From Actinokineospora auranticolor (GTDB taxonomy: Bacteria > Actinomycetota > Actinomycetes > Mycobacteriales > Pseudonocardiaceae): a stretch of DNA of 64,000 bases. Below, piece by piece: positions 5,805 through 22,606 of the stretch (positions are counted from its first letter, which is position 1; each line of letters begins with the position of its first letter). The notes under the pieces are model-generated. The model saw only the letters and a list, made by a program, of their open reading frames with translations. It was not told the DNA's origin and searched no databases. The stretch is from assembly GCF_002934265.1 (NCBI RefSeq), contig NZ_PTIX01000003.1:310001-374000 (forward strand), read 5' to 3'. A program made the position numbers and the translations under genes.

Positions 5805-6236
5805 TCAGTTGCCCCCGAACATCTCGCGCACGGTGCGCTCCATCATGAAGTACGCACCGGGGACCATGACCACGACCCAGATGCCCAGGATCGTCCACAG
5901 CATCGGCTTCTGCAGGCGCGGTCCCCTGGACCAGAAGTCCACCAGCATGACCCGCAGGCCGTTGAGCGCGTGGTAGAGCACGGCGCCCACCAGGCCGACC
6001 TCGATGAGGTTCACGATCGGGGTCTTGTAGGTCTCGATGACCTCGTCGTAGGCGTTCGGCGATACCCGCACCAGAGCGGTGTCGAGCACGTGCGCGAACA
6101 GGAAGAAGAAGGTGAGCACCCCGGTGATCCGGTGCGCGACCCAGGACCACATGCCCGGGTCGCCGCGGTAGAGCGTCCCGGTGCGCCGGGACCCGCGGGC
6201 CGCCACCTTCTCGGTGGCGCTGGCCGATTCGGACAT
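5805..6236 (-). CDS. sdhC: Succinate dehydrogenase cytochrome b556 subunit
   Basis: SdhC (143 residues) is the first gene of the operon. Three membrane helices are visible: HRITGVLTFFFLFAHVLDTA (residues 35-54), IVNLIEVGLVGAVLYHALNG (73-92) and MLWTILGIWVVVMVPGAYFM (112-131). The HRITGV motif and the histidines in FFLFAHVLD and YHALNG are the usual quinone-site and haem-ligand positions. The frame is open for another 77 codons upstream, but the ATG at 6236 begins the conserved part and the upstream sequence is proline-rich and non-homologous. The 640-base gap on its 5' side must hold the operon promoter. Confidence 0.93.
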   Translation of the reverse strand: MSESASATEKVAARGSRRTGTLYRGDPGMWSWVAHRITGVLTFFFLFAHVLDTALVRVSPNAYDEVIETYKTPIVNLIEVGLVGAVLYHALNGLRVMLVDFWSRGPRLQKPMLWTILGIWVVVMVPGAYFMMERTVREMFGGN

Positions 6237-6877
6237 CGGTATCGGGCCTCCACGTCGCTGATGGACCAGTCTGGAACCTGTCTGGTGGACAAGCCGCGCC
6301 CGTGCTGGTACCGCACACGAAACGGGCTTGACTGAAGGGATGCTAGACCCGACGAGTCGGGCACACCCAACCCGCCGATCCCCTCTGTGACGGACGAGAC
6401 ACGGCCTCCGGGCCCGTCCCCCGCTGGTGGGGCCCCTACCGCCCGAACCGGTCCGCGTGTTGGTCACCGCGCGTCACGGAGGTGCCGGTGACCACCGTGT
6501 CGGGCGATGCCGAGATCGGGTCGAGACTCTGAATCGATCACGCCGCGCCGCGCGAATCCCCGCACCGGGCCTTATCGGTGACCGCACCGTGTCCACTCAG
6601 GACCGCCGGGCACCCGCTCCGGTCATCCGCCGCCACCCGGAGGTGTCCTCGAGTGGCCACGGTGGGTGGTGTGAATCAACAATTGGGTTACGCCCTGGAC
6701 GGTACGCCGGAAAGCGCCGTACCGGGGAGTACGGTCCTGCGGCAACGCCGTGCGGCGCCCGTCACGCGGCGCGCGGACCGGGGAAGACGAAGACGACTCA
6801 GCCACTGAGCCGACAACTCCAACACTGCCGAGAAACCGAACGACTGCCGACTCTGTCGGATCCGGAAGGAGAAAGCC
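6237..6877. promoter_or_regulatory. Long divergent intergenic region between sdhC and the nucleoside importer
   Basis: No convincing gene lies in these 641 bases: open frames on the plus strand are shadows with arginine/serine-rich products. The region must contain the sdhC promoter (minus strand) and the BMP-operon promoter (plus strand). Near the sdh side, ACCAG and CTGGT halves enclose a 12-base spacer at 6267-6288. Nearer the importer, an inverted repeat CGGTAC...GTACCG occurs around 6698-6723. The last 25 bases hold a small CCGA/TCGG hairpin and the AAGGAG ribosome binding site. No known riboswitch fold was recognised. Confidence 0.55.
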
Positions 6878-16136: not shown

Positions 16137-17399
16137 ATGGCCCAGGACATCGTCCCGATCGAGCTGGGGTTGCCACAGGGTGACGTCGTCACGCTGTGGG
16201 CGCCGCGGTGGCGGGAAGACGGTGAGGAATGGGAGGCGTTCCTCGGTCACGAGGACGACCTCTACGCGTTCCCCGACGCCGCGCACCTGGCGGCGTTCGT
16301 GCGGACCACCGAGGAACACGACCTGTCCGACCACCCCGCCTGGCACCTCGTGCCCGCGCTGTCGGTGGCCGAGCTGATGCCCGACGAGGGCCACCAGTAC
16401 GACCTGGTCGGCGTGCCCGAACTGGTCGCCGAGGAACCGGACACCTGGACGGTCAACGAGCTGGCCGACATCATCACCATCGTCCGCGCGCTCGCCGACG
16501 TCTGCGAGCTCGACGAGGTGCACGAGGTCCTCAACGCCGCCGACGGCTTCTCCGTGCTCGAACAGGGCACCTTCCCGTTCACCGGCCGCGAGGGCGAGCG
16601 GCTGTGGACCGACATGGCCGAGACCATCTCCGAGCGCTGGGACGAGGTGCTCGACGCGCTGGACTCGGTGGTGACCGCCCCCGACGTGGACGAGGCCGCG
16701 CTGGAGAAGAGCTCCCAGGAACTGGCCGAGTTCCAGGCGGAGGCCGCCGAGGCGGGCGAGGACGCCGACGTCGACCTCGACAGCGAACTCGACGCCGCCG
16801 ACGACTCCGAGGACGACACGGCGGAGGACGAGGAGACGGGCCAGGTCGGGTTCTGGGCGGAGGTCGGCATCGACCCCATCAAGATCATTACCGACGGCCA
16901 CGAGTACTACACCCTCCGCTGCTACCTCGACGACGAACCGGTCTTCCTCGGCCGCGAGGGCAAGATCGACGTCGCGGGCTCCCCGCGCGCGCTGGCCAAG
17001 TTCCTGGCCACCGAGGACCTGTCGGAGAACGACCTCGCCGAGGTGTCCACCTGGTCCGACGTCGCCGCCAAGGCCACCGACGGCAGCCTCGAGATCGACG
17101 TGCACGCGGACAACACGTACGTCCTCCAGGGCCTGGCCGACGACCTGGGCGAGGGCGTGGACGCGGTCGACCCGGTCCAGCTCGACCTCGCCGTGGAACT
17201 GCTCAACGACGCCGCCGACTGGGCGGGCGACGAGGGCGTCGCCGAGGCCCTCAACCAGTCCGAGTCCCTGGGCTGGCTGGTCAGCTTCATCCTGGCCCCG
17301 GACCCGACCCGGATGGCCCCCAGCGCCCCCTTCACCGCCGAGTCGGCGGCGTGGAGCAAGCTGGTGCAGGACCTGGAAGACCGCCTGAACGCGCACTAG
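16137..17399 (+). CDS. Conserved acidic actinobacterial protein (sometimes labelled primosomal protein)
   Basis: The 420-residue protein starts at ATG 16137 behind a perfect AGGAGG, so a possible upstream start at 16095 is rejected. The N-terminal domain (IELGLPQGDVVTLWAPRW, then WEAFLGHEDDLYAFPD) and the C-terminal domain (EYYTLRCYLDDEPVFLGREG) share a theme of short aromatic strands and are joined by a very acidic linker (residues about 195-240). I recall this as a conserved actinobacterial family occasionally named primosomal protein without evidence; Rv3311 of M. tuberculosis appears to be the counterpart by size and neighbourhood. No catalytic motif was recognised. A strong terminator follows. 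Confidence 0.8.
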   Translation: MAQDIVPIELGLPQGDVVTLWAPRWREDGEEWEAFLGHEDDLYAFPDAAHLAAFVRTTEEHDLSDHPAWHLVPALSVAELMPDEGHQYDLVGVPELVAEEPDTWTVNELADIITIVRALADVCELDEVHEVLNAADGFSVLEQGTFPFTGREGERLWTDMAETISERWDEVLDALDSVVTAPDVDEAALEKSSQELAEFQAEAAEAGEDADVDLDSELDAADDSEDDTAEDEETGQVGFWAEVGIDPIKIITDGHEYYTLRCYLDDEPVFLGREGKIDVAGSPRALAKFLATEDLSENDLAEVSTWSDVAAKATDGSLEIDVHADNTYVLQGLADDLGEGVDAVDPVQLDLAVELLNDAADWAGDEGVAEALNQSESLGWLVSFILAPDPTRMAPSAPFTAESAAWSKLVQDLEDRLNAH

Positions 17400-17412
17400 T
17401 CGCGGACTCGCG

Positions 17413-17448
17413 GAAGGGGGAGGAACCCGGGTGGGTTCCTCCCCCTTC
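17413..17448 (+). terminator. Strong hairpin terminator
   Basis: A perfect 16-bp stem (GAAGGGGGAGGAACCC and its complement) with a 4-base loop lies 14 bases after the stop codon and is followed by GCTTTGCT. It ends the YbaB and acidic-protein transcription unit. Confidence 0.9.
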
Positions 17449-17542
17449 GCTTTGCTGCCGTCACGCATCGCGACCGGTCGCCACCCACGTGCGCACCGCT
17501 GGTCCCGCTGTCGGCCTGTGGTGGTTGGCTCCGGCGGGTGTG

Positions 17543-17647
17543 GCTACCTTGAGTGGGCGGAAGTTGCCCTGATCAGGCGATGTGAGGCTGGAACTTTGCA
17601 CACCAGTTCGAACGTTCGTTATATAGATCGGTGCAGGCGAGCGGGAC
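17543..17647 (+). repeat. Left copy of a 105-nt inverted, promoter-like element
   Basis: This noncoding sequence aligns without gaps to the reverse complement of 21330-21434. In the 81-base core (17567-17647), 68 positions agree by hand count, and 25 consecutive bases around GCTGGAACTTTGCACACCAG are identical. Features include the palindrome CCTGATCAGG, a CTGG...CCAG inverted repeat, a -35-like TTGCAC (17596-17601) and a -10-like TATATA (17620-17625) with an 18-base spacer. The conserved block ends at GCGGGAC. It points rightward, towards the 3' end of the convergent add gene. Confidence 0.85.
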
Positions 17648-17696
17648 TTGATGTGCCCGGGGGAGGAGAAGGTGTCCAGCCGAGCACCGCGGGTGT

Positions 17697-18848
17697 CTAC
17701 CTGGGAGCCGGTCGTCCGGCGGGTGCGGTTGGTCGGGACGCGCGCCAGTCGCCGACCAGGGGTGCGTAGGCGGGCTTGATGACGTCGTCGATGATCGCCA
17801 GCCGCTCGTCGAAGCCGATGAACGCGGACTTCATCGCGTTGATCGTGAACCGGCGCAGGTCGGCCCAGCCGTAGCCGAACGCGTCGACCAGGGCGGCCAG
17901 CTCGCTGGTGACGGTGCAGCCGCTCATCAGGCGGTTGTCGGTGTTGACCGTCACCCGGAACCGCAGGTCGGCCAGGAGGCCGAAGGGGTGCTCGCCGATC
18001 GAGGTGGCCGCGCCCGTCTGCAGGTTCGAGCTCGGGCACATCTCCAGCGGGATCCGGCGGTCCCGCACGTACGACGCCAACGGGCCGAGGTGGGCCTTGC
18101 CGTCGCCGTCCACGGTGATGTCGTCGATGATCCGCACGCCGTGCCCTAGCCGCTCGGCGCCGCAGTGCTGGATCGCCTCCCAGATCGACGGCAACCCGAA
18201 CGCCTCGCCCGCGTGGATCGTGAAGTGCGCGTTCTCGCGGCGCAGGTAATCGAACGCGTCGAGGGTGCGGGTGGGCGGGAAACCCGCCTCCGGGCCCGCG
18301 ATGTCGAAGCCGACCACGCCCGCGTCGCGGTAGCGGACAGCCAACTCGGCGATCTCCGAGGCGCGGGCGTTCTGGCGCATCGCGCACAGCAACGTGCCGA
18401 TCCGGACCGTGCGGCCGTCCGCGGCGGCGCGGCGCTCGCCCTCGCGGAAACCCGCCTGGACGGTCTCCACGATGGTGGGTAGGTCGAGGCCGTGTTCGGT
18501 GAACAATTCGGGCGCGTAGCGCACCTCGGCGTACACGACTCCATCCGCCGCAAGGTCCTGCGCGCATTCGGCTGCCACCCGAACGAGTGCATCTTGGTCC
18601 TGCATGACACCGCACGTGTGCGCGAAGGTCTCCAGGTACCGCTCCAGCGAACCCGAGTCCGCCGCCTCCCGGAACCAGACGCCCAGGGCCGCCGGGTCGG
18701 TCGTCGGCAGGCCGCGGTAGCCCGACGCCTCCGCCAACTCGACCACGGTGCCCGGCCGCAGCCCACCATCCAAGTGGTCGTGCAGCAGGACTTTCGGGAC
18801 GTCGCGGATGGTCTCCGGGGTCACCGGCACCGGCGTGGGGGTCGACAT
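17697..18848 (-). CDS. add: Adenosine deaminase
   Basis: The enzyme (383 residues) converts adenosine and deoxyadenosine to inosine and deoxyinosine. All metal and catalytic motifs are present: LHDHLDGG near residue 22 (two zinc-binding histidines), TIHAGE (third histidine and catalytic glutamate), ERLGHG, and NTDN near the C-terminus with the zinc-ligand aspartate. The MCPSSN motif is also conserved. The ATG at 18848 has no obvious Shine-Dalgarno, so translation may be leaderless. The gene stands alone inside the 3.9-kb segment bounded by inverted repeats and is convergent with the left copy. It complements the nucleoside importer operon functionally. Confidence 0.95.
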
Positions 18849-19075
18849 GCGGCCACGGTACTCAGACCAGGGACGCCACCCGATCGGGTAGCACCAGCGT
18901 CACGTAAGGTGGGTGACGATCACGTTATACCGCTGGATGGCCGTCCACCGAACGGACTAATAGTCCGTGTCTGGGCCCACGAACGAGCAACGGGTGGTGT
19001 ATGGACGCCTTCTGGGACTGGCTAGGCTCGCCAGCGTCTCCCCCATCTCCCCTCCCCAGGACGAAGGTCACCTCC

Positions 19076-20401
19076 GTGAACGAAAACAACCCCACGGTGT
19101 CGTTCGACCGGATGCGCAACATGCTCACGCGCGCGGCCGAGATCCGTGAGAGCGAACAGCAGCAGATCTTCGACGCCCTGGACGAGATCCACGCGCGGCT
19201 CTCGCCGCTTGAGTCCATCGGGTCGGTGCGCAAGCGGCTGTCCGAGATGCCGGACCGCACCGAGGTCAGCGTGCTGGCGGAGCGGCTCGACGAGGCGATG
19301 GCGAAGCTGGAGGGGCAGAACGCGGCCATCGCGGCGATCGGGCGCGCGGTGGAGAGCATCGTGGACAAGCTCGCCACGCCGTTCGCCCAGCTCGACGGCA
19401 GGCTCGACGGGGTCGCGGGCCGGTTCGAGGGCGTGGCCGGGCGGATGGACGGCCTGGAGGACAAGCTGTCGAGCATCCACCGGCGCATCGACGAGCTCGA
19501 CAGCCACCTCGACAAGCAGGACAACCGCATCGACCAGGTGCCCGGCTCGGTGCACGGGCCGGTGCGGGAACGCATCGAGATCATGGAGACGGCGCTGCGC
19601 GGCCGCCTCGACGAGGTCGACGAGGGCGTCCACGAACACCTCGACGGCACCAAGGACGCGCTGGCGCGGGTGGTCGGGGAGACCTCCGACGCGGTGCGCG
19701 GTGCGGTCACCGAGTCGGCGACCACCGTGCGCGGCCTGGTGACCGACTCGACCAACACCGTGCGCGGTGCGGTCACCGAGTCGACCAACGCCCTGCACGG
19801 CCGCTTCACCGAGACCTCCGACGCCCTGCACGGCAAGCACGACGCCGCGGCCCAGACCCTCGCGGGCATCCGCGAGGCGGTCGGCGCCTCCCGCGACGCG
19901 GTCTACGGCAAGCTCGACGAGGCCACCGACGCCCTGCAGAACGCCCTGCGGGAGACGAAGGAGACGGTCGACGCCAGCGACCGCCTGGAATCCCTCGCCC
20001 AGCGGCTGGAGAAGGTCACCACCCGCCTCGACGAGATGGCGACCCGCCTCGACACCGTCGAGGACGGCTTCACCGCGCGCCTGGGCGACCTGGGCGGCGC
20101 GATCGAGCGCGGCCTGACCAAGGTCGAGGGCACCCTCTCCAACCGCCCCGACTCGGACTCGGTGGAAACCCTGGTCCGCCGCAGCAACGACGAGTCGGTC
20201 CGCCGCATCGGCGGCCACCTCGACGAGGCCATGGCCACCTTCGCCGAACTCATGCTCGGCGGCGGCACCCCCACCCCGCCCCCGCCGACCACCCTGCCCC
20301 GTCAGGGCAACCGCCGCCGCACCAACGGCAAGGGCCCCAAGTCGGCCGACAAGGTCCGCGACGAGAACGCCGAAGACAGCGACATCGCCGCAGGCGCGTA
20401 A
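19076..20401 (+). CDS. Long coiled-coil, apolipoprotein-like protein
   Basis: The 441-residue protein begins at GTG 19076 behind GAAGGT; an ATG at 19001 lies upstream of a TAGGCT -10-like box and is unlikely to be used. From residue about 20 to 390 it is an almost uninterrupted amphipathic helix with heptad and 11-residue periodicities (for example RLDGVAGRFEGVAGRMDGLEDKL written as overlapping short repeats, and AVRGAVTESATTVRG/ TVRGAVTESTNALHG). The tail is Pro-rich and then charged. No signal peptide or membrane segment is seen. Such proteins are common hypotheticals in Pseudonocardiaceae; a structural or scaffold role is inference. A strong terminator follows. Confidence 0.75.
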   Translation: MNENNPTVSFDRMRNMLTRAAEIRESEQQQIFDALDEIHARLSPLESIGSVRKRLSEMPDRTEVSVLAERLDEAMAKLEGQNAAIAAIGRAVESIVDKLATPFAQLDGRLDGVAGRFEGVAGRMDGLEDKLSSIHRRIDELDSHLDKQDNRIDQVPGSVHGPVRERIEIMETALRGRLDEVDEGVHEHLDGTKDALARVVGETSDAVRGAVTESATTVRGLVTDSTNTVRGAVTESTNALHGRFTETSDALHGKHDAAAQTLAGIREAVGASRDAVYGKLDEATDALQNALRETKETVDASDRLESLAQRLEKVTTRLDEMATRLDTVEDGFTARLGDLGGAIERGLTKVEGTLSNRPDSDSVETLVRRSNDESVRRIGGHLDEAMATFAELMLGGGTPTPPPPTTLPRQGNRRRTNGKGPKSADKVRDENAEDSDIAAGA

Positions 20402-20411
20402 TCCCGCTCTT

Positions 20412-20449
20412 CTGGTGGGCCATCTCCGTTCGCGGAGATGGCCCACCAG
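20412..20449 (+). terminator. Terminator with 17-bp stem and TTCG loop
   Basis: CTGGTGGGCCATCTCCG pairs perfectly with its complement around a TTCG tetraloop, starting 10 bases after the coiled-coil gene. The length and perfection of the stem make termination or RNA 3'-end stabilisation likely. Confidence 0.9.
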
Positions 20450-20709
20450 CGTCTTCGGCGATGCTCGGCGCCTGCGGCTTGAAGGCCCGCTTCGGGGTCG
20501 CCTGGACGAACGACGACCAAACAGGTGACGTCCGCTCGGCGCGGTTTCCGGCCGTGCTCCGCCGCCCCTGGGCCGAACCCGCCGCCGCACAACCGAGCCC
20601 ACCCCCCAATCCCTCCCCTCAAACCCCGCGGCCAGCCCAAGTCGATCTCGGCACCCCGAATCGACTCCGCCGCCCCGAATCGCCCTCGCCGCCGCACAAC
20701 GGGTCATGC

Positions 20710-20740
20710 CCAGCGCGCGGCCGCCAAGGCCGCGCGCTGG
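20710..20740. repeat. Perfect 13-bp hairpin next to the tandem array
   Basis: CCAGCGCGCGGCC and its complement flank a GCCAA loop. It abuts the first copy of the 17-bp tandem repeats, so the two may form one structured unit. Confidence 0.75.
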
Positions 20741-20843
20741 CCCGACGCGGCTGTTGGCGCGACGCGGCTGTTGGCGCGACGCGGCTGTTGGCGCGACGCG
20801 GCTGTCGGCCCGACGCGGCTGTTGGCGCGACGCGGCTGCTCGG
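20741..20843. repeat. Six tandem copies of a 17-bp unit
   Basis: The unit CGCGACGCGGCTGTTGG is repeated six times. Copies 2 and 3 are identical; copies 1 and 5 differ at one base (CCCGACG), copy 4 at one base (TGTCGG), and copy 6 is 18 bases with a CTCGG ending. A period of 17 shifts the reading frame each time, which argues against a protein-coding repeat. Variable-number tandem repeats of this kind often differ between strains. Confidence 0.9.
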
Positions 20844-21329
20844 CCTCGTGCGCTGGCGGGCGAAGAGCGAGCGTGGCGTCGGCGGTGGTTGGCGGGATGG
20901 AGCGGGATCGGGATGTGTCGGCGTGGATGGGCCACGGGCCGTGGGCCGAGTTGGGTTGGTGCCGGTGTGCCGAAAGGAGGCGTCGGATGAGCTAACTTCC
21001 AGTCAACGCCGATGGGCTGCTTGAGCCAATGCGCTGCTCGGCGAGCCTGCGTCTGCGGTCGGCCGCGCCCATCCGTCTTCCCTCGTGAGGGGCTCGCCCG
21101 GCCGGGTGCGTGTCCCGTGTGACGGGGCTGGCTTGGTGTGACGGGGCTGGCTTGGGGTGCGGCGCTCTCCGGTGGCGGCGCAGCTGTGGTGGGCGTAGCT
21201 GTGGCCGCGCTGTTGGTGGGCTTGGTTTGCCTGCGGTGGTTTCCGGTTGGAGTGTGGCGGAGGGTGCCTTGTGGTTACCAAGTCAACGGTGGGGCCGGCT
21301 TGCGGGGTGGGGTGCCGTGTCGCAGTTTC

Positions 21330-21434
21330 GTCCCGCTCGCCTGTACTGATCTGATAAGCGAACGATCGAACTGGTGTGCAAAGTTCCAGCTTTGGATCGC
21401 TTGATCAGGGGAAACTGTGGTGACGATGGGTAGC
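21330..21434 (-). repeat. Right copy of the 105-nt inverted, promoter-like element
   Basis: Read on the minus strand this is the mate of the element at 17543-17647. The TTGCAC-like hexamer lies at 21376-21381, the CTGG...CCAG repeat and the TGATCA core are preserved, but the -10-like hexamer has changed (TATATA becomes TTATCA). The conserved block again ends in AGGCGAGCGGGAC. The downstream side (leftwards) leads into the gene-free region with tandem repeats. It starts 48 bases beyond the NlpC/P60 stop codon. Confidence 0.85.
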
Positions 21435-21481
21435 TGTGGGTGGGGTGGTCGGGGCTGGAGTGGTTTCGGAGGGGTGACGGG

Positions 21482-22606
21482 TCAGCCGGTGGGGCGGTAG
21501 AAGCCTACGAAGGGCATTCCCGAGTTGGTGGTGCGTAAGGGGCCTACCTGGACGGGGTCGCCTGCCTCGACGATCTGGCCGCTGCCGATGTACATGGCGA
21601 CGTGGCCTTCCCAGCAGACCAGGTCGCCGGGGAGGAGTTGGTCGGCGGACGGGACCTCCGCGCCGATGTCCTGTTCGCGGGAGGTGCGCGGGATCTCCAG
21701 ACCACCCTCGCCGTACGCGTACTGGGTGAGGCCGCTGCAGTCGAGGCCTACGCCGGGGGCCGTGCCGCCCCAGACGTACGGGACGCCCAGTTGGCCTAGG
21801 GCGGCTCGGACTGCTCGGGCGGCTGTTTCGTTGGGGGCCTGAACCGTGCTGCCGTCGGGGAGGTTGACGGCTACGCCCGTGCCCGGCTGCGGTGGGATGG
21901 CCATGGGCAGCCTGCGTTTGGTGACGGTGCCGCCGCCACCCCCGCCGCCGGAATAGCCGCCGCCGCCCCCTCCACCACCGCCGCCTCCGCCTCCGCCTTG
22001 GTGCTGGGTGTACGCGGTGGGTGGGGGTGGGGCGGTCGAGGTGGCGCCCGCCGTGCTGGTGGCGCCCGCGTCGCCGCCGGTGAGTCGGGTGACGACGCCG
22101 GTCAGCTGGGTCATCACCGCTTCGAGGTTGGTGGACGTGTCGCCGGTCAGCTGGGCGGCGTAGCGGGCCAGTTCGGTCAGCTTGGCCTGCGCCCCCGCGG
22201 GGTCGCCCGCTTGGCGCAGGGCGGCGGCGGTGCGCAGCAGTTCGGCGGCGCGGCGGTTGAACTCGTCGAGCTGGTCCTGGTTGACCTTCTGGCCGACCTT
22301 GAGGATCTCGCCCGCCTCGCGCACCGCCCGCTGCACCTCGGCGCTGTACTGGCTCAGGTCCGCGCTCGCCGCCCGCTGCGCCGTGGCGTCCTCCTGGTGG
22401 CGCACGGCGCTCTGCCCCGTCCACCCCTCCCGCAGGGTGGCGGCGTACCGGTACGCGTCGTCGTCGACCGTGGTGAGGGTGTTGCTGACGGTCGCGTGCG
22501 CCTGACCCAGGCGGTCGATCGCGTCGTCGTCGGTGGCCAGGTGCCGTTGCGCGGTCGCGGCAGGCTGGACCATCGGGTCCAGCAGCTCGTGCACGGGGCT
22601 CACCAC
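21482..22606 (-). CDS. NlpC/P60 peptidoglycan hydrolase with WXG-like N-terminal helices
   Basis: The 374-residue protein has a helical N-terminal region of about 160 residues (VQPAATAQRHLATDDDAIDR...), a threonine/proline linker, a run of about 20 glycines, and a C-terminal NlpC/P60 domain (about residues 240-374). The catalytic cysteine is in GVGLDCSGLTQYAY and the histidine in GHVAMYIG. NlpC/P60 enzymes cut peptide stems of peptidoglycan. There is no Sec or Tat signal, and the gene follows a WXG100-like gene, so export by a type VII-like route is inferred. GTG codons at 22606 and 22603 are both possible; 22603 overlaps the preceding micro-ORF stop. Confidence 0.88.
   Translation of the reverse strand: MVSPVHELLDPMVQPAATAQRHLATDDDAIDRLGQAHATVSNTLTTVDDDAYRYAATLREGWTGQSAVRHQEDATAQRAASADLSQYSAEVQRAVREAGEILKVGQKVNQDQLDEFNRRAAELLRTAAALRQAGDPAGAQAKLTELARYAAQLTGDTSTNLEAVMTQLTGVVTRLTGGDAGATSTAGATSTAPPPPTAYTQHQGGGGGGGGGGGGGGYSGGGGGGGTVTKRRLPMAIPPQPGTGVAVNLPDGSTVQAPNETAARAVRAALGQLGVPYVWGGTAPGVGLDCSGLTQYAYGEGGLEIPRTSREQDIGAEVPSADQLLPGDLVCWEGHVAMYIGSGQIVEAGDPVQVGPLRTTNSGMPFVGFYRPTG

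Follow-up and report, generated by a model that had tools for sequence, protein, structure and literature searches.

What do two inverted copies of a noncoding sequence represent on either side of the adenosine deaminase gene add of Actinokineospora auranticolor? The copies, called here copy 1 and copy 2, lie in a 64,000-nt stretch of contig NZ_PTIX01000003.1 (positions 310,001 to 374,000; the window), where they bound a segment of about 3.9 kb. A preliminary description of this DNA had offered three meanings for them: a dispersed regulatory element with a conserved RNA start, the ends of a decayed mobile element, or sites whose recombination could invert the add-containing segment. The first of these comes close to the evidence given below, with the correction that the promoter is of the extracytoplasmic function (ECF) stress-sigma type and not of the TTGCAC type. 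We propose, with a probability of about 0.6, that the copies belong to a family of dispersed, locally multiplying promoters of ~85 nt, which would be read by a stress sigma factor and would start noncoding transcripts.

The inverted noncoding pair is real. Copy 1 and the reverse complement of copy 2 (Table 1) agree without gaps at 70 of 84 positions (83% complementary; 86% identity by BLAST), and no other ungapped 84-nt alignment of the two intergenic regions scores higher. Shuffling the copy-1 region 300 times as non-overlapping dinucleotides gave at most 46 matches; the similarity of the two copies exceeds chance. The 25 identical consecutive bases reported before were found again as the longest exact run of a gapped alignment, and of the 105 nt originally assigned to each copy 84 nt stand, the remaining ~20 nt being a poorly matched edge. 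Each copy occupies an intergenic region flanked by convergent genes, and the two face each other. The BLASTN search of the 8.43-Mb genome that the preliminary description had suggested returned copies 1 and 2 only (E ≤ 0.1), and profile searches add two diverged copies (C18:135971-136058, minus strand, and C32:82126-82218, plus strand).

The family was then delimited in the own genome (G000), in its congeners and in a sample of 150 genomes of the host family. A 28-nt pattern, with up to 3 mismatches allowed, found two further sites in the relative G003 and no match in the other 148 of the 150 genomes. A sequence-only profile (R1) built from five copies (the window pair, two from G003 and one from G012) retrieved many more copies in G012 and G003, its matches in G014, G006, G003 C4 and G000 C4 being set aside as chance. 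With a second profile (R2), built from 26 copies, the 16 Actinokineospora genomes yielded at E < 1e-3 24 matches in G012 (3 of them lacking the promoter motif described below), 7 in G003 and 4 in G000, and no element among the 150 candidates scored per genome in the remaining 13 congeners. Over the 150 host-family genomes, R2 matched 12 genomes of 6 genera at E ≤ 1e-3, outside Actinokineospora most strongly in a second genus (g17), where a third profile (R3) found 3-9 matches per genome (E ≤ 0.01) in 5 genomes. An exact 24-mer had no match in a collection of genome contigs; a broader pattern hit 56 loci there, one being the known family (Actinokineospora enzanensis) and the 55 others belonging, by name, mostly to unrelated bacteria. 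In all, 56 copies were listed, 34 of them in Actinokineospora; two (G012C1c and G125) overlap a called gene, and G012C21b may be a false match. The element is thus multicopy, dispersed and intergenic, as miniature inverted-repeat transposable elements (MITEs) are, and these searches establish a family of dispersed elements in some actinobacteria. Our literature search, based on titles and covering few subscription papers, found no publication that describes it.

The copies share a promoter-like motif. Two boxes placed 18 nt apart were found in 51 of the 56 copies in the relaxed form used for anchoring, and exactly GGAAC-N18-CGTT in 48, across subfamilies with unrelated spacers, both fractions being upper estimates since profile searches favour motif-bearing copies. 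Copies whose spacers read, for instance, TTTGCACACCAGTTCGAA went into R1, and this profile also recovered others that have these boxes around the unrelated spacer TTTCCCGGGCGTGTCGTT. Among the 51 anchored copies (the motif-less G012C6c, G012C3e, G012C21b, G031c and G125 being left out), information peaks at GGAAC and TTCGTT and the spacer is variable; a second conserved block, TTCACC...ATCG, lies upstream of the boxes and, together with GGAAC, CGTT and a G-rich end, makes up the family-conserved parts. The TTGCAC and CTGG...CCAG sequences noted earlier are indeed common to copies 1 and 2, and lie wholly or partly within the family-variable spacer, so that they are not conserved family-wide. 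A sigma-70 reading of TTGCAC was rejected because this spacer differs between subfamilies, and the idea that one copy (G003 C64) contains a LexA box was dropped, the other copies being without it.

The boxes correspond to the published SigE/SigH-type promoter, with a -35 GGAAC, a -10 cGTT and a spacer of 17-18 nt. In the accessible parts of the respective papers, the consensus is GGAAC-N17-18-cGTT for SigH/SigE-dependent promoters of Corynebacterium glutamicum (PMC10012870), GGAAYR-(N17-18)-GTT for SigH of Mycobacterium tuberculosis (PMC4803200) and GGAAT-N18-GTT for SigR of Streptomyces coelicolor (PMC2375139). We infer that a SigE/SigH-type stress sigma reads the boxes. The own genome has 36 occurrences of GGAAC-N18-CGTTSS and 8 of the reversed pattern. 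Among the 11 intergenic sites fetched, three are family copies and one lies ~78 nt, counted from the motif centre, before the start of mca (TIGR03446, E 9e-152), which the accessible part of PMC10012870 lists as a SigH target in C. glutamicum. After the boxes, GC skew averages 0.49 over the 24 nt that begin 7 nt beyond CGTT and is above zero in 50 of 51 copies, while the skew of the regions flanking this stretch is near 0 and 45% of random intergenic 24-mers are skew-positive (n = 9600). RNAalifold predicted no conserved base pair in 27 copies, and Rfam gave no match at the gathering threshold in the window; two matches within 17400-21600 (E 0.34 and 0.76) both lie off the elements. A protein encoded after the element was rejected, the indels between orthologues including lengths not divisible by three.

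The copies are placed with a marked polarity. Genes were called with our own codon-usage scorer, and "ahead" and "behind" refer to the direction of the predicted transcript. In 47 of 52 copies (leaving out G012C6b, G012C1c, G000C32 and G125, which overlap a gene or have one side without a called gene) the gene behind is nearer than the gene ahead (p 1.3e-9), the median distances being 140 nt and 682 nt; the gene behind is co-directional in 43 of the 52, a count in which co-directionality is automatic in convergent gaps and orthologous copies are entered separately. Motif-bearing copies with a called gene ahead have no co-directional gene start nearer than 361 nt. Actinokineospora gaps that hold a copy have a median length of 1080 nt (n = 31), and copy-free gaps medians of 34 nt when convergent (n = 46), 137 nt when divergent (n = 57) and 37 nt when tandem (n = 181). 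After clpX, for example, the gap measures 64-168 nt in G000, G002, G004 and G009 and 300-800 nt in six other genomes, four more being short with other neighbours, and R2 found no element there in any of these genomes; the clpX gap of G012 carries a copy, with 893 nt ahead of the element and 160 nt behind. For 32 of the 34 Actinokineospora copies (without G012C1c and G012C21b), no two downstream regions match over more than 53 nt (E 0.01), and many of these regions have tandem repeats of their own. By eye, no relationship is apparent between the genes that flank different copies, ahead or behind, and a shared pathway of neighbouring genes was rejected on this ground.

Conservation was compared between sister species in seven orthologous g17 locus pairs, from two species pairs, with 8 shared copies. 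Where the identity at fourfold sites of these loci is 0.858-0.933, the 97-nt element block reaches 0.82-0.99 and exceeds the fourfold value in 7 of 8 gaps; the DNA ahead falls short of the fourfold value in 8 of 8, with identities of 0.54-0.82 when aligned columns are counted and 0.15-0.70 when all columns are, and the alignments reveal turnover through species-specific tandem repeats. The idea that variability exists only ahead of the start site was rejected, since the DNA behind falls short of that value as well in 6 of the 7 gaps where it could be measured. The element forms a conserved island within rapidly changing DNA, a kind of DNA that occurs without the element too: among element-free gaps of at least 200 nt in either species (n = 12), six have an identity of at least 0.84 over all columns and six of at most 0.62. 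Two long fast-changing gaps without a detectable element, L228 8197-8812 and L220 8411-8793, were noted, the former being repeat-rich and strand-biased.

With regard to spread, 35 of 51 copies have their nearest neighbour in sequence within their own genome; copies 1 and 2 are mutual nearest neighbours (0.81), and so are the C18 and C32 copies (0.83). Nine copy pairs lie within 15 kb of each other, against 0.98 expected for 52 positions in 8 genomes, a set that omits the partial second G012 C1 copy, two weak G012 matches and weaker g17 matches, and in which a G123 pair and the G160 pair are orthologous. Nearby pairs occur inverted (e.g., G123, G160, G012 C26) as well as direct (G012 C3, G031), and the window pair is one of these local pairs. 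At G012 C1 (L093, ~6000-6290), two same-strand copies lie ~226 nt apart, with a run of N between them; the second, partial copy was never used. A link to reverse transcription, of the diversity-generating retroelement or retron kind, was sought without result: the reverse transcriptase family PF00078 occurs in 3 of 16 congeners, the carrier G003 and the non-carriers G007 and G011, and was not found in the carriers G000 and G012.

In the reading we favour, a stress-type ECF sigma factor (SigE/SigH/SigR-like) would read each copy through GGAAC and CGTT, 18 nt apart. The transcript would start with a G-rich 5' end, extend from <100 to ~2000 nt into gene-free DNA and often head for a convergent gene, meeting it at its 3' end and terminator. 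Conservation covers the promoter and a few tens of bases after it and does not extend to the sequence of the predicted RNA, so the effect would likely reside in the act or site of transcription, for instance by interfering with the convergent gene or by titrating the sigma factor; alternatively, the element may be a largely selfish repeat. Copies would arise by DNA-level copying, often nearby, and copies 1 and 2 would be such a local pair.

Several observations weigh against this proposal. Five of the 56 copies have no motif and three more have a changed box, and the share of motif-bearing copies is partly circular, the profiles having been built from such copies. In the own genome, 19 of the 30 GGAAC-N18-CGTTSS sites fetched are inside genes, so the genomic excess of the motif does not mainly reflect promoters, and the mca site is the only one of the 8 intergenic non-copy sites close before a co-directional gene; since most own-genome sites are intragenic or not before genes, the motif alone is weak evidence. 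An insertion of any kind, placed in proportion to gap length, would yield part of the association with long gaps. The low identity behind the element also counts against the proposal, as does the fact that half of the element-free control gaps are as variable as the element-bearing ones. Counts are not independent, given that the g17 copies are for the most part orthologous and that two species pairs underlie the conservation test. When the whole order was searched with R3 under strict filters, with 14 candidates scored in each genome, 2 of 298 genomes matched, G000 and G003. Copy 1 itself, only 49 nt from add, is atypical of the family.

As a rival explanation, the copies could be a non-autonomous mobile element, MITE-like or derived from an insertion sequence (IS) end, spread by a trans-acting enzyme and with an incidental promoter. 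Copies at different places in different species, the frequent same-genome nearest neighbours with their local clustering, and the gap after clpX, which is long where G012 has its copy and short in G000, G009, G002 and G004, all suit this view; we nevertheless hold it to be doubtful, since conservation is highest at the promoter boxes rather than at the ends. Terminal inverted repeats showed no excess at the conserved ends of 51 copies (mean score 5.16 vs 5.22 shuffled), these ends being set by conservation so that inverted repeats could lie further out. Nor did a distant BLAST of copy 1 against plasmids and phages give a match, or the neighbours, viewed by eye without a systematic scan, a recurring transposase. 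One IS110-like transposase gene (by eye; L094, G012 C56, 237-1442) was seen 282 nt ahead of one copy in opposite orientation. The more specific proposal that copies 1 and 2 are the ends of a decayed mobile element is not supported, given that the segment is collinear in 15 congeners and many copies elsewhere stand alone. An origin as solo promoters, left behind after decay of the genes that they once drove, would explain the gene-free DNA after the promoter and, after copy 1, an AGGAG resembling a Shine-Dalgarno sequence followed by a short open frame (by eye); it seems unlikely when neighbouring genes appear, by eye, to be unrelated between copies, downstream regions have so little in common and the element is conserved where the DNA ahead is not.

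The extra upstream block with TTCACC and ATCG would also be expected of a protein-binding or chromosome-organising site whose ECF-like boxes are binding half-sites. Sequence and spacing, however, equal the promoter consensus given in the accessible part of PMC10012870, and position and GC skew are strongly polar, which makes such a site a little less credible still than orphaned promoters. A long shot, in our opinion, is a stress-inducible diversity generator, in which an ECF promoter with a G-rich R-loop initiation zone would let transcription destabilise the DNA ahead; noncoding DNA up to at least 1 kb long might then, very tentatively, turn over by tandem duplication around a fixed promoter. 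In its favour are the G-rich start of the non-template strand, the promoter's conservation as an island and the turnover of repeats; against it, variability is also seen behind the element and in six of the 12 gaps that have none. For recombination sites that would invert the add segment speaks the inverted arrangement of copies 1 and 2 and of some other nearby pairs (G123, G160, G012 C26), but add and the coiled-coil gene keep the same orientation relative to the p434 gene in 15 of 15 congeners, the two copies are only 83% identical with no exact run beyond 25 nt, and other pairs (G012 C3, G031) are direct; we give this last explanation hardly any credit.

The features of the host locus are collected in Table 1. 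As the preliminary description stated, the segment holds add, a coiled-coil gene and a tandem array (unit of 17 nt), and no transposase was found inside it among the open reading frames (ORFs) scanned with Pfam, a subset of all. The region ahead of copy 2 contains no gene by codon scoring and no Pfam match in its three ORFs scanned; the hairpin that follows the coiled-coil gene could also terminate the predicted copy-2 transcript. All 15 congeners examined have the p434 gene, add and the coiled-coil gene in collinear arrangement, so the segment bounded by the copies is ancestral. In the loci fetched from these relatives the NlpC gene does not adjoin the coiled-coil gene (one 41-residue match lies at the far edge of the G015 locus), and the right side of the segment is therefore not comparable. 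The p434-add gap is 5-95 nt in 13 of the 14 congeners other than G012, whose gap contains another element copy in the orientation opposite to copy 1; because copies 1 and 2 are mutual nearest neighbours, the G000 and G012 copies in this gap are not simple orthologues. R3 applied to the window and to the p434-add loci of the 15 congeners recovered both copies of the window and that of G012, plus one match at chance level (E 0.61). In G007, the gap (L038, ~2259-2826) has an unrelated 567-nt insert bounded by GAACAATCC-type repeats, which differs from the element, so that this gap has been struck by unrelated insertions. The convergent genes of G010 (L033) have a long hairpin, made of GAGTCCAAC-type sequence, between them.

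Table 1. Features of the add locus in window coordinates; R3 was built with copies 1 and 2 included.
Feature	Position	Strand	Basis
Element copy 1	17564..17647	+	R3 match 17565-17649, E 1.7e-15
-35 box GGAAC of copy 1	17590..17594	+	pattern match, conservation profile
-10 box CGTT of copy 1, 18 nt after GGAAC	17613..17616	+	pattern match, conservation profile
G-rich stretch near predicted transcript start, copy 1	17630..17647	+	sequence; family-wide GC skew
Element copy 2	21330..21413	-	R3 match 21329-21414, E 2.5e-16
-35 box GGAAC of copy 2	21383..21387	-	pattern match, conservation profile
-10 box CGTT of copy 2	21361..21364	-	pattern match, conservation profile
Apparently noncoding, repeat-bearing 928 nt ahead of copy 2	20402..21329	-	codon scoring, Pfam, repeats
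17-nt tandem repeat array within the preceding region	20738..20838	.	repeat search
Terminator-like hairpin, 17-bp stem, after coiled-coil gene	20412..20449	.	seen in sequence; putative function
Terminator-like hairpin after p434 gene, upstream of copy 1	17413..17448	.	seen in sequence; putative function
p434 gene, upstream neighbour of copy 1	16137..17399	+	earlier start 16095; no Pfam family at E 0.01
add, adenosine deaminase, neighbour of copy 1	17697..18848	-	Pfam PF00962, E 1.3e-105
Coiled-coil protein gene, neighbour of copy 2	19076..20401	+	codon scoring, Pfam scan
NlpC/P60 protein gene, upstream neighbour of copy 2	21482..22606	-	Pfam PF00877, E 8.4e-20

If the proposed reading is true, these actinobacteria may switch on many noncoding transcripts together under stress, and the copies provide concrete loci in several species for testing transcription function, selfish spread and local DNA change. 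Among known systems, three are close to the element in one respect or another. Correia repeat enclosed elements (CREE) are bounded by Correia repeats. The accessible parts of PMC5039591 and PMC10969869 present the CREE of Neisseria as small dispersed repeats, about 90-250 per genome, which bear sigma-70-like promoters and tend to lie near predicted noncoding RNAs. The element resembles this published description of CREE in being small, dispersed and promoter-bearing and departs from it by its 4-24 copies, its ECF-type promoter and ends at which no terminal repeats were found. Prokaryotic MITEs, as covered in the accessible part of PMC10969869, are short, multicopy and mostly intergenic, some of them with promoters and one reported mainly from the 3' regions of ORFs. 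The element is likewise short, multicopy, mostly intergenic and promoter-bearing; unlike MITEs, it has no detected terminal inverted repeats, its conservation is highest inside, and its end towards the variable DNA is undefined. In box sequence and spacing (-35 GGAAC, -10 CGTT, 18 nt) it is like the actinobacterial SigE/SigH/SigR ECF stress promoters, as they appear in the accessible part of PMC10012870, whereas its boxes sit in a multicopy unit of ~85 nt and not close before a gene. The promoter-bearing small repeats covered by the accessible review text combine sigma-70-like promoters with terminal repeats; the family proposed here would be built on a stress-sigma promoter, located 3' of unrelated genes and directed into DNA that is not conserved.

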